Below are positions 6,593 through 19,582 of a stretch of DNA of 34,904 nucleotides, piece by piece (position 1 is the first letter of the stretch; the number at the start of each line of letters is the position of its first letter). The notes beneath the pieces are model-generated. The model searched no databases. It had not been told where the DNA came from and was given only the letters and a program-made list of their open reading frames with translations. The position numbers were made by a program, and so were the translations under genes. The stretch comes from Candidatus Poribacteria bacterium. GTDB lineage: Bacteria; Poribacteria; WGA-4E; PCPOR2b. Location: NCBI GenBank assembly GCA_022567695.1, contig JADFGN010000010.1, forward strand, positions 1 to 34,904, in the 5' to 3' direction.

Positions 6593-7054
6593 CTAAACCA
6601 CCTCTTCTTCATCATAAGGATATAGCTTTTTCGGTTCTTGCGGACGGTTGGGCTTCGGTACGTCAACAAGCCACTTGAAGGTCAAAGGCATTATGTTTGT
6701 TTGCTGCCAATCCCCCGATATTTCCGAACCATCCGGACTCATCATTCCCTCGAAGGATGCGTTCGCCTGCTTTAGCTCAAAGTACACCAATCCCTCGTCA
6801 TGACTTCTGCGGCTAATCGGCAGATCGACCGTGCCCTGATCGGGGCTATCAAACTTGCCTGTGAATTCCTTTTCCGACGTTTCTGAGATCTTAAGAATTA
6901 ACCTTAAGTAGTACTTATCTCCGGATCTCCCCTCCTTACGAAGGAGGGGCCAGGGGAGGTTGTCCGCCCCTGAAAGGTAAAGGGGGAAGGGCACGACGAT
7001 GCGCCATGACCTCAACCCCTCAATACTGAGCGATAGAATTCTCTTAAACCTCAA
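6593..7054 (-). pseudogene. N-terminal domain of the broken alpha/beta hydrolase
   Basis: Residues from about 46 on (LRLILKISETSEKEFTGKF... to KWLVDVPKPNRPQEP) are the beta-rich domain that precedes the hydrolase fold in this family. The frame stops at 6593-6595 directly after YDEEEVV. With one extra T in the TTT run it would read on as VVLENKDAGVKIAG into the catalytic part. The first ~45 residues are translated from dispersed-repeat DNA (6922-6970) and flanking sequence, begin on a TTG overlapping the upstream stop, and show no signal peptide. The gene therefore carries two independent lesions: a repeat replacing the 5' end and a frameshift. Confidence 0.7.
6922..6970 (-). repeat. Dispersed GC-rich palindromic repeat, copy 2 (inside a coding frame)
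   Basis: On the minus strand this carries the same GGGGCGGACA, CCTCCCC and CCCCTCCTTCGTAAGGAGGGG blocks as 268-326, in opposite orientation. Here it sits in the N-terminal frame of the hydrolase and contributes translated residues (SGADNLPWPLLRKEGRSG). Confidence 0.75.
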
Positions 7055-7920
7055 GCCGTTTCGATAAGCTCTTTCGGCAAATTTTCTACGCCGATTTCAC
7101 CATCACATAGTACGACAGCGCGTTCAATGGCTCTTGCGAGTTCCCGGACGTTGACCGGCCAATCGTACGCCATTAATGCATCCATCGCCTCCGGCGCAAG
7201 CGTCGGGACAGGACGGTTGTGTTCTCTGGCGCGTTCTTCGAGGAAATGATCGACCAACAGGGGAATGTCCTCCTTTCGATCGCGCAAGGGCGTTAATTCA
7301 AGGGTAATGGTACTGAGACGCTCAAACAGGTCTTGACGGAGCTTGTTTACGAGCATCTCTGTGCTGAGATGTGTTGCGGCAATGACTCGAACATCACACC
7401 GAATCTTTTCGGTTCCGCCGATGCGCTCAAATTTTCTTGTCCCCATGAAGCGATGCAACTTCACTTGTACGCTTGAGGATAGCCCATCAATTTCATCTAA
7501 AAAAAGTGTTCCACCATCGGCCTGTTCAATCATTCCATGCTTTCGTTGATTTGCGCCTGTAAATGCCCCGCGCTCATGACCAAAAATCTCTGACTCAAAC
7601 AGGGTTCCGGGAATCGCAGTGCAATTGACTGCAATAAACGGTTTATCCCGTCGCGGACTGGTTTGATGGATAAGCCGCGCGACCAACTCTTTGCCCGTGC
7701 CCGTTTCCCCAACCACTAAAATCGGCACGTCTGTTGATGCAGCCTTGCGCCCATCGTCGAGGGTTTTCTGTAGCGGCGCATGCTGCGTGATGACGTTGAT
7801 TTCCAATTCTGGAGTGCTTTCCGGAGCGCGTTCTAAGGCGTCCAGTAATCCTTCTGCCTCTGCGACACTAATCTTCTGCTCAGCGAGCATGGTGAGAATC
7901 TTGCGACATTCGGTTGTCAT
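7051..7920 (-). CDS. Sigma-54-type AAA+ ATPase with N-terminal SHOCT-like helix, no DNA-binding domain
   Basis: A 289-residue protein. Residues 1-30 (MTTECRKILTMLAEQKISVA...) are a short helical hairpin of the SHOCT-like kind. From about 45 it is a sigma-54 activator AAA+ domain: Walker A GETGTGKE (71-78), ESEIFGHERGAFTGA with the intact sigma-54 contact loop GAFTGA (118-123), Walker B GGTLFLDEID (136-145), then DLFERL and a WPVNVREL sensor-II region. The last is unusual in having Val where the family has Gly. It ends at LPKELIETA with no Fis-type HTH, so it cannot bind an enhancer by itself. An AGGAGG site precedes the ATG. It is the third gene of a DUF2089-LRR-AAA operon and may be recruited by its neighbours; that is inference. 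Confidence 0.85.
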   Translation of the reverse strand: MTTECRKILTMLAEQKISVAEAEGLLDALERAPESTPELEINVITQHAPLQKTLDDGRKAASTDVPILVVGETGTGKELVARLIHQTSPRRDKPFIAVNCTAIPGTLFESEIFGHERGAFTGANQRKHGMIEQADGGTLFLDEIDGLSSSVQVKLHRFMGTRKFERIGGTEKIRCDVRVIAATHLSTEMLVNKLRQDLFERLSTITLELTPLRDRKEDIPLLVDHFLEERAREHNRPVPTLAPEAMDALMAYDWPVNVRELARAIERAVVLCDGEIGVENLPKELIETA

Positions 7921-17269: not shown

Positions 17270-17298
17270 TTGACGGATGCAGTATTTTGGCTTAAAAT
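17270..17298 (+). promoter_or_regulatory. Sigma-70-like promoter of the SDR remnant
   Basis: TTGACG (17270-17275) and TAAAAT (17293-17298), spacer 17 bases, about 28 bases before the ATG. It may now drive the downstream small gene and Shedu genes, since the SDR itself is broken. Confidence 0.6.
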
Positions 17299-17326: not shown

Positions 17327-17862
17327 ATGACAATTTCAAATCTCTTTTCACTAAGCGGGAAGGTTGCGCTCGTCACTGGTGCGAGTCGAGGGATTGGTAA
17401 AGCGATTGCGCTTGGGTTTGCAGGCGCGGGGGCCAAGCTTGCGCTCGTTGCACGTTCTGAAAATAAACTCCTTGAGGTGCAGGCGGAAATCAAAGCCCTC
17501 GGATCGGAGGCAAAGATTTTCCCATGCAATCTCCGACAGATAGAGCGGATTCAGGATTTAATTAGCCAAGTGATTGAGACGTTTGGACAAATCGATATTC
17601 TCGTTAACAACGCTGGGACAACGAATGGGCGTCAAAAGGCGTCAATGTCAACGCAATCGCCCCGGGATATATTGACACAGATCTATCAGCGGGAGTTATC
17701 AAAGATCCGGTGCGATCTACACAACTGTTAGCTCGCATTCCCGTAGCGCGATTTGGCGCGCCAGAAGAGCTTGTTGGCGCGGCGATATTTCTCGCATCTG
17801 ATGCAGCGAAGTACGTTCACGGGCATATTCTGACAGTCGATGGCGGTTGGATGGCGCGTTGA
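17327..17862 (+). pseudogene. Short-chain dehydrogenase/reductase with internal deletion
   Basis: The N-terminal half is intact: a Rossmann TGASRGIG nucleotide loop and the ILVNNAG strand. After NNAGTTNGRQ the frame turns into unrelated residues and stops at 17731. The C-terminal half resumes in another frame from about 17650 as GVNVNAIAPGYIDTD, continuing RFGAPEELVGAAIFLASDAA and VDGGW to a stop at 17862. The ~70-residue middle segment with the catalytic Ser-Tyr-xxx-Lys is gone, so the enzyme is dead. GGCGTCAA occurs twice, 2 bases apart, at the junction (about 17632-17650), suggesting a deletion at short direct repeats. Intact relatives are ~250-residue FabG-like oxidoreductases. Confidence 0.85.
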
Positions 17863-17877
17863 AAGGTGGTGTTTATC

Positions 17878-18159
17878 ATGGCAAGAAAAAATTCACCTTA
17901 TTTCCGTACCCGCAACGCAGACAAGGCACTGGAGTTGTTGAAGGAATGGGGATATGAGTTGAAGCCCACAGCCGGAAATCCTTTTTCCTTTGATGTGCTT
18001 GGGACTAATTTGTATATCCAGACGTTTTCGACGGGGCAAGCTGATGTCCAGCTACTGTGGGATTATAGCCGTTCAGATTACAATTTATTTAGACGGCTCA
18101 AACGGAAGTTCTGGGATGACCATCTCTACTTCAAAAAGCTATTCGAGACATTGAAGTGA
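17878..18159 (+). CDS. Small protein of unknown function upstream of Shedu
   Basis: 93 residues from the ATG at 17878, preceded by AAGGTGG; an upstream start 4 codons earlier is less likely. I do not recognise a family. The protein is basic and aromatic-rich (RTRNADKALELLKEWGYEL, then TFSTGQADVQLLWDYSRSD and LKRKFWDDHLYFKKLF), with no signal or membrane span. Its stop overlaps the GTG start of the Shedu gene (GTGA), so the two are translationally coupled and were probably acquired together. A role as partner, regulator or antitoxin of the nuclease is possible but unproven. Confidence 0.65.
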   Translation: MARKNSPYFRTRNADKALELLKEWGYELKPTAGNPFSFDVLGTNLYIQTFSTGQADVQLLWDYSRSDYNLFRRLKRKFWDDHLYFKKLFETLK

Positions 18160-18440
18160 ATACAGTAACGACCATTGAATCGCTTAGGCAAATTCTCAGA
18201 GGGTATATGCAACTGCTTGAGCGATTTCATATTCGGGAATCCGCCTTACAAAATTACTTGAAGGCTTATCCCATTCTTCTCCACCCATCCTATAAGATCG
18301 TCAATTCTCAGGTTCGTTTAGGTGCGGAATATGTCGCCGACTTCGTGATTGAAACCTACGACGGCAATTATACGCTCGTTGAAATCGAAAAACCAACCGA
18401 TCGGCTCTATCTGCTCAACGGCATCCGTCATCGGCATTGA
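18156..18440 (+). CDS. Shedu-type nuclease (DUF4263), N-terminal part of a frameshifted gene
   Basis: 94 codons from a GTG coupled to the gene before it. The segment EYVADFVIETYDGNYTLVEI with Asp62, Glu76, Glu78 and Lys79 is the PD-(D/E)xK core of the DUF4263 domain, the nuclease of the Shedu antiphage system. The frame ends in a short unrelated tail (GIRHRH). Removing the shift (one base lost near 18420-18423) continues as HPSSALTHAEQQVLDW into the next frame. The whole protein would be about 185 residues, a short Shedu form with a minimal N-terminal helical region. As written the nuclease core is separated from its C-terminal half. Confidence 0.7.
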   Translation: MNTVTTIESLRQILRGYMQLLERFHIRESALQNYLKAYPILLHPSYKIVNSQVRLGAEYVADFVIETYDGNYTLVEIEKPTDRLYLLNGIRHRH

Positions 18441-18712
18441 CGCATGCAGAGCAGCAGGTCTTAGATTGGCAAGGTTGGATTCGACAGAATATCGCATACC
18501 TTCGTTATGAAGCTAATTTGGTGATGAATGCTCCACAAGGTTTGGTAATTATCGGGCAACGTTCGCAAATGAATACGGATGAAATTCGGCGATTGAATGA
18601 AAGAAATCTGAATATGCGAGGGCGTCTGCAGATTATAACCTTTGACGATCTTTCGTTGCGGTTCAGTCAACTGATTCATAACATGGAACAGGTAAACGCC
18701 GCAGCCGTGTAA
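18437..18712 (+). CDS. Shedu-type nuclease (DUF4263), C-terminal part
   Basis: The nominal TTG start opens with THAEQQVLDWQGWIRQN, a very conserved block of DUF4263 that normally follows the PD-(D/E)xK strand by about 20 residues. Then come AYLRYEANLVMNAPQGLVIIGQ and a helical end with ITFDDL. There is no ribosome site of its own, so it is the second half of the gene at 18156 in the -1 frame rather than an independent gene. If the shift is an assembly error, the intact gene would be 18156-18712. The PEP-hydrolase gene follows after about 40 bases. Confidence 0.7.
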   Translation: MTHAEQQVLDWQGWIRQNIAYLRYEANLVMNAPQGLVIIGQRSQMNTDEIRRLNERNLNMRGRLQIITFDDLSLRFSQLIHNMEQVNAAAV

Positions 18713-18751: not shown

Positions 18752-19582
18752 ATGAAATCAAAACGAGGAGATATTTTAGCCCGATTGCGGGCAAACATTG
18801 AAGCTGGCAAACCGATTATCGGAGCGGGCGCAGGCACCGGCATCTCCGCAAAATGCGAGGAAGCTGGAGGCGTCGATCTCATTGTCATCTATAATTCCGG
18901 TCGTTTCCGCATGGCAGGCCGTGGCTCATTGGCTGGCATGATGCCCTACGGAGATGCCAACCAGATCGTCGTTGAAATGGCAAGTGAAGTGCTTCCCGTC
19001 GTTAAAAACACGCCTGTTCTCGCTGGCGTCTGTGGGACGGACCCGTTTCGTTTGATGGATGTTTTCCTCAAGCAGATTGACGAAATCGGATTTTCGGGCG
19101 TACAGAATTTCCCGACTGTAGGATTGATCGATGGACTGTTTCGGCAGAATCTTGAGGAGACCAATATGGGATACGGTCCAGAGGTAGAAATGATTCGTAT
19201 CGCCCACGAGATGAATCTGCTGACAACCCCTTACGCTTTTAACGAATCGGAAGCTGAACAGATGGCGGATGCGGGGGCAGATATCCTTGTCGCCCACATG
19301 GGACTGACAACCAAGGGATCAATTGGAGCGACGACGGCTTTAACGCTTGAAGAAGCTGCCAAACGGGTACAAGCAATTCACGACGCGGCAAAAGGAGTCA
19401 ACTCAGAGATCATCGTCATTTGTCACGGCGGACCAATTGCTGAACCTGAAGATGCCCAATACATTCTGGATAATACGACAGGTGTTGCCGGATTCTATGG
19501 CGCGTCGAGTGCTGAACGCCTGCCAACTGAACGTGCAATTAAAGCACAAATTGAGTTGTTCAAGTCGATCCACTTTTCTTGA
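18752..19582 (+). CDS. Phosphoenolpyruvate hydrolase family TIM-barrel protein
   Basis: 276 residues from the ATG at 18752, with GCGAGG just upstream. Landmarks are [76 protein letters not shown] and CHGGPI near the end. These define the PEP-hydrolase/Tm-1-like C-terminal TIM-barrel family, related to isocitrate-lyase/PEP-mutase barrels. Members are found with UPF0261 (Tm-1 N-terminal) proteins, but none is adjacent here. The reaction is unconfirmed; hydrolysis or C-C cleavage of a phospho- or keto-acid is a family-level guess. Intact and typical in length; it is downstream of the broken Shedu gene but looks unrelated in function. Confidence 0.85.

Follow-up and report, generated by a model that had tools for sequence, protein, structure and literature searches.

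Shedu proteins and their relatives

Shedu proteins are anti-phage nucleases; they sense a trigger through their N-terminal domain, after which DNA is cut by the nuclease. The authors of PADLOC regard Shedu as a system made of one gene (PMC8565338), and two further papers describe the N-terminal domains as diverse (PMC12904381; PMC12137116). No two-gene Shedu was found among the titles and abstract openings of the papers listed by literature searches. The locus described here lies in a window of 34,904 nucleotides, the whole stretch of DNA that was analysed, from a Candidatus Poribacteria MAG (7.3 Mb in 733 contigs, completeness 91%, contamination 6.68%). The initial annotation had presented it as a Shedu (DUF4263) nuclease coupled to a small partner protein. 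The reading that we consider likely is a more modest one, that of an inactive, 5'-truncated type I Shedu remnant beside an orphan gene.

A scan of GTDB with a single short pattern round the HAEQQ block of the nuclease returned 19 loci, which are to be taken as a sample. In seventeen of them the nuclease match is preceded, in the same frame, by 107 to 272 residues, within proteins of 257 to 424 residues. The length is 363 to 424 residues in 15 of these 17, the two shortest proteins being those of loci L051 (257) and L045 (326). The exceptions among the 19 are L057, a remnant, and L058, in which 32 residues precede the match within a frame of 287 residues. Short SduA proteins do exist: PADLOC-DB holds four models of 211-230 positions (PDLC00379, PDLC00395, PDLC00396 and PDLC00397), a protein of 224 residues from genome G272 matches a short PADLOC SduA model at E 5e-75, and a relative of 254 residues is encoded on Rhodococcus plasmids. 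No Shedu relatives were found in phages or among PDB sequences, and two scans of IMG/VR, in which 9 and 99 stretches fitted the patterns, gave no confirmed one.

Within the phylum, 5 of the 84 genomes surveyed carry a match to the Pfam family SduA_C (PF14082) at E <= 0.001, above the Pfam cut-off in three of them. To note, two Poribacteria matches above the cut-off, L068 (genome G071) and L071 (genome G031), lie inside open frames of 671 and 674 codons, on the minus strand of these loci. Another Poribacteria genome of the same class, G075, retains 36 residues of the Shedu gene seen in the window, with an identity of 72-80% depending on the stretch aligned. This scrap occupies positions 1489-1596 of L007, on contig C299 (GTDB record DTYX01000299.1, which is also that of the remnant L057), between two open genes, one uroporphyrinogen-decarboxylase-like and the other mandelate-racemase-like (names given by eye). 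No further convincing piece of the Shedu profile was detected on this contig.

Genomic setting of the locus

Between 17.3 and 19.6 kb of the window, the plus strand carries in succession an SDR oxidoreductase gene, the 93-residue ORF, the two frames of a Shedu nuclease and a PEP-hydrolase-like gene (Table 1).

Table 1. Features of the Shedu-like locus, in window coordinates
Feature	Position	Strand	Evidence
SDR oxidoreductase, broken, two pieces in different frames	17327..17862	+	Pfam adh_short; tblastn against L063-L065
Shine-Dalgarno-like site AAAGGTGGTG	17862..17871	+	sequence
Orphan protein of 93 residues (probable gene)	17878..18159	+	codon score; no family match; AlphaFold2
Shedu (SduA_C) nuclease, first half	18156..18440	+	PF14082; own profile; conservation
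Shedu (SduA_C) nuclease, second half with HAEQQ block	18422..18712	+	PF14082; own profile
PEP-hydrolase-like gene (PF09370)	18752-19582	+	PF09370

The PEP-hydrolase-like gene is matched in 79 of the 84 phylum genomes at E <= 1e-60. Gene order was compared by searching the 32 window proteins, at E 1e-10, against eight PEP-hydrolase regions from the same family or order (L027-L034, that of L027 being a short contig of 5147 bases) and against the corresponding region of G075 (L039), and, at E 1e-3, against three SDR regions (L063-L065). Beyond the query gene, the sole window protein with a relative in these regions is that encoded at 7051-7920, which has one in L029 (48% identity). Scans for promoters and terminators gave results at chance level, with 6 promoter-like sites (shuffle mean 4.3, sd 2.4) and 2 terminator-like sites (2.3 in shuffles). 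One of the promoter-like sites, with 10 of 12 positions, precedes the SDR gene (17270-17298).

The SDR gene itself is broken. Its N-terminal piece (17327-17731) matches Pfam adh_short at E 1e-26, and its C-terminal piece, read in another frame, extends from about 17620 to 17862. In all three relatives (L063-L065, by tblastn) these pieces start 525 nt apart, compared with 293 nt here, which amounts to 232 nt missing.

A Shedu nuclease in two frames

The assignment to Shedu made in the initial annotation holds, PF14082 and the PADLOC model for SduA type I, PDLC00389, both being matched by the two pieces of the nuclease. The 18156-18440 frame matches model positions 3-58 of the 159 of PF14082 (E 7e-7, 29.9 bits for a cut-off of 27) and the frame ending at 18712 matches positions 69-158 (E 1e-7, 32.6 bits). 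When the whole genome was searched, the score of the first piece was 26.8 bits alone and 27.2 bits with its same-frame neighbours. The two pieces cover consecutive stretches of PDLC00389, 203-289 and 290-373. A profile of our own was built from the 17 homologues of the GTDB scan that possess an N-terminal part and one plasmid protein (n=18). The first piece matches its positions 197-283 with 80 bits and the second its positions 282-372 with 94 bits, the next-best frame of the window reaching 2.3 bits. The Shedu identity of both pieces is far beyond chance. Positions 1-196 of the profile, which precede the nuclease, are matched by no frame of the window.

The nuclease is not encoded by one continuous ORF. 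The single-base loss proposed at about 18421 is borne out by the flanking conserved residues, E-I-E-K-P before and H-A-E-Q-Q after, which bracket a break at about 18418-18425 with a net loss of one base. The last few codons of the 18156-18440 frame fall past the break, and the HAEQQ block is indeed found in the next frame. The two open frames overlap at 18383-18437 only.

The PD-(D/E)xK core, described as kept in the initial annotation, is preserved for the most part but not entirely. The first half contains the GxExxxD and ExE motifs, with D, E and E present, and the second half contributes the HAEQQ block; in the first half, a lysine kept in all 18 homologues is replaced by a glutamine. Columns at least 90% conserved number 24 in the profile, one of which belongs to the absent N-terminal part; of the 23 columns of the nuclease core, 20 are kept in the window, including D, E, E, H, A and Q.

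The 93-residue protein

The small ORF begins with an ATG 15 nt past the SDR stop, a GTG at 17866 offering an alternative start for a protein of 97 residues. The Shine-Dalgarno-like site ahead of it begins on the final base of the SDR stop codon. At its other end, the overlap with the DUF4263 frame is as initially annotated: the TGA stop occupies 18157-18159 and the nuclease frame opens at a GTG at 18156, resulting in a shared GTGA. Such a 4-nt overlap is a usual sign of translational coupling. The codon score of the ORF (0.080) is the highest of the six frames, the next being -0.001; blocks read in a wrong frame attain it in 9 cases of 327, and 15 of the 69 blocks from real genes lie at or below it. 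Because of its Shine-Dalgarno-like site and its gene-like codon use, the ORF is probably a real gene. It is probably expressed.

The protein is an orphan. It has no family match in Pfam, PADLOC, PHROGs or NCBIfam, and its six partial matches to PDB sequences (best E 0.064) were not counted as related. No convincing homologue was found in two overlapping sets of 193 and 386 relatives, in the 84 phylum genomes, or in plasmids and phages, by searches whose sensitivity is limited for such a short protein. Pattern scans fitted 36 stretches in GTDB and one in IMG/VR, none of which was confirmed. The 82 genomes of the phylum of G272 yielded none either, in a search that contained no known positive and whose empty result is uninformative. 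Two matches were dropped: that in G067 (E 0.005) lies inside a frame of 2100 codons, and that in G358 (E 2.8e-4, 33% identity over 46 residues) contains two internal stops and has a score that is unsurprising in one of 386 genomes.

The neighbourhood of Shedu genes was also covered. The initial annotation had looked to homologues of the small protein, and to their neighbours, as a check; tblastn against 71 loci, including the 17 homologues with an N-terminal part, found no convincing homologue beside Shedu. It returned eight copies of the window locus itself, a match in L066 (E 0.011) with internal stops, and a 28-residue match in L008 (E 0.93). For want of homologues, the small protein was not met away from DUF4263 neighbours either, which the initial annotation had named as part of a refutation. 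The contig of G075 that carries the Shedu scrap yielded nothing convincing for the small gene (best 5.1 bits, E 0.26). Nor does the protein resemble the N-terminal parts of the 17 Shedu homologues, the hhalign score of 12.2 falling within the range of ten shuffles (7.1-14.0).

AlphaFold2, run on the single sequence, gives a low-confidence model (mean pLDDT 67, pTM 0.55) with a predicted order of one strand, one helix, four strands and one helix. Foldseek detected no match to this model in the PDB or BFVD at E <= 0.001, the best in BFVD being an uncharacterised siphovirus protein (E 0.0029). The highest Z in VIA-align is 7.0 (1v8c_B), among rows for KA1, METTL16 and RNase H3, a level typical of unmatched models. 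A degenerate Hjc-like PD-(D/E)xK fold was considered by eye and found no support in the structural rows, bearing in mind that a model of such low confidence excludes nothing.

A probable decayed one-gene Shedu

A decaying locus is favoured because three lesions are found together: the frameshift in the nuclease, the loss of its lysine, and an SDR gene with 232 nt missing, the last of which the initial annotation did not mention. The Shedu scrap left in G075 is a further sign. To judge from the sequence, the locus looks decayed, and the decay, if any, would be recent since conservation persists over most of the nuclease core. An assembly error could lie behind either the frameshift or the SDR lesion. 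The 17 window gene frames used for codon statistics stay open over 7266 codons, which speaks against a high general rate of indel errors, though roughly, as these frames were picked as long ORFs. We infer that the lesions are real.

The likely history would start from a one-gene Shedu composed of an N-terminal domain and a PD-(D/E)xK-type DUF4263 nuclease. By analogy with other Shedu proteins, the intact form would have sensed a trigger through the former before cutting DNA with the latter. The N-terminal half would have been lost, and a frameshift falling after the ExE strand and before the HAEQQ block would have cut the nuclease half. The product translated now would comprise about 89 nuclease residues followed by a few out-of-frame ones, with neither the HAEQQ block nor the N-terminal domain. 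Such a product is not expected to be an active enzyme, because the second half of the nuclease fold is missing from it. The small gene is flanked by a broken gene on either side, and the joint of the truncation would have set the nuclease remnant against its end, creating the GTGA overlap, which is most likely accidental. The role of the small gene, if it is expressed, need not concern Shedu.

The short form of the nuclease is best read as a truncation because 17 of the 19 loci fuse an N-terminal domain to it that is absent here; the existence of short Shedu proteins means that this is not proof. Two features speak against our reading, namely the good Shine-Dalgarno-like site of the small ORF and the 4-nt overlap, the usual mark of coupled genes. 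The coupled two-gene Shedu of the initial annotation is nevertheless not supported, in view of the same-frame N-terminal domain of these 17 loci and of the small protein having no homologue beside a Shedu gene in the 71 loci compared. No evidence was found that the nuclease and the 93-residue protein work together.

Among the alternatives, a genuine and active two-gene Shedu, in which the 93-residue protein would serve as sensor or regulator in trans and the frameshift would be an assembly error, is unlikely. It would account for the GTGA overlap, the Shine-Dalgarno-like site and the gene-like codon use of the small ORF, it fits the reported diversity of N-terminal domains and the existence of short SduA proteins, and it agrees with the preserved D, E, E and HAxxQ block. 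It has to contend with the 71 loci compared, in which no homologue of the small protein lies beside a Shedu gene, with a likeness to Shedu N-terminal domains that stays at shuffle level, with an adjoining SDR gene that is broken too, and with the loss of an otherwise invariant lysine.

An improbable variant is that the two-gene Shedu was real in an ancestor and was recently inactivated, the nuclease and the SDR gene decaying afterwards. Overlapping genes, and lesions that affect two neighbouring genes and leave the small ORF intact, are what such a history might leave behind. A second copy of the small gene is what it lacks: neither the 84 phylum genomes nor the 386 relatives contain a convincing one, and the contig with the G075 scrap shows no convincing piece of it.

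We also consider it unlikely that the fused sensor of a split Shedu has given way to a distinct alpha+beta protein of 93 residues, with a TBP/KA1-like order of elements in the low-confidence model, which would be translationally coupled to a nuclease-only subunit and act on it in trans. Finally, programmed minus-one frameshifting, which would produce a full nuclease from the two frames, is very improbable: the frames do overlap at 18383-18437, but conservation on both sides confines the shift to about 18418-18425, a stretch in which inspection by eye reveals no slippery heptamer, and a single frame encodes the block in each of the 17 homologues that possess an N-terminal part.

As read here, the locus matters little: a known defence gene gains another degraded copy, alongside the scrap of G075. 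Control of a nuclease-only Shedu by the small protein in trans, if it were shown, would give a separable sensor to a family that is otherwise presented as a one-gene system, and sensor and nuclease could be studied apart.

Comparison with known Shedu systems

The same genome contains a second Shedu-like ORF, on contig C342 (loci L005 and L038 of genome G000), which encodes about 200 residues (site at L005 822-2028, with the upstream ORF). It resembles the window nuclease in being a short SduA_C-like protein that overlaps an upstream ORF. It differs from it by its scores, 24.3 bits with the Pfam model (cut-off 27) and 6.7 bits with our own profile; it has no PADLOC match at E 0.01 and no plasmid match. 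Its upstream ORF of 205 residues bears no likeness to the 93-residue protein of the window, has no match in Pfam, NCBIfam or PADLOC, is absent from plasmids and was found, in the 193 relatives searched, in its own genome alone. The C342 pair was considered as a case for a general two-gene arrangement and gives it no support.

The short SduA proteins covered by the four PADLOC models are similar in length to the nuclease core that remains in the window copy. The pieces of the window nevertheless fit the long-form model PDLC00389 better: PDLC00397 (E 1e-5) and PDLC00379 (E 2e-4) match the second piece only, PDLC00395 the first only (E 0.006), and PDLC00396 does not appear among the window matches at E up to 1. 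Set against SduA type I, the window copy has lost the N-terminal domain, is split by a frameshift and carries a replacement of the invariant lysine, whereas the two halves of the nuclease still follow one another as they do in this type, with the D, ExE and HAxxQ residues conserved.
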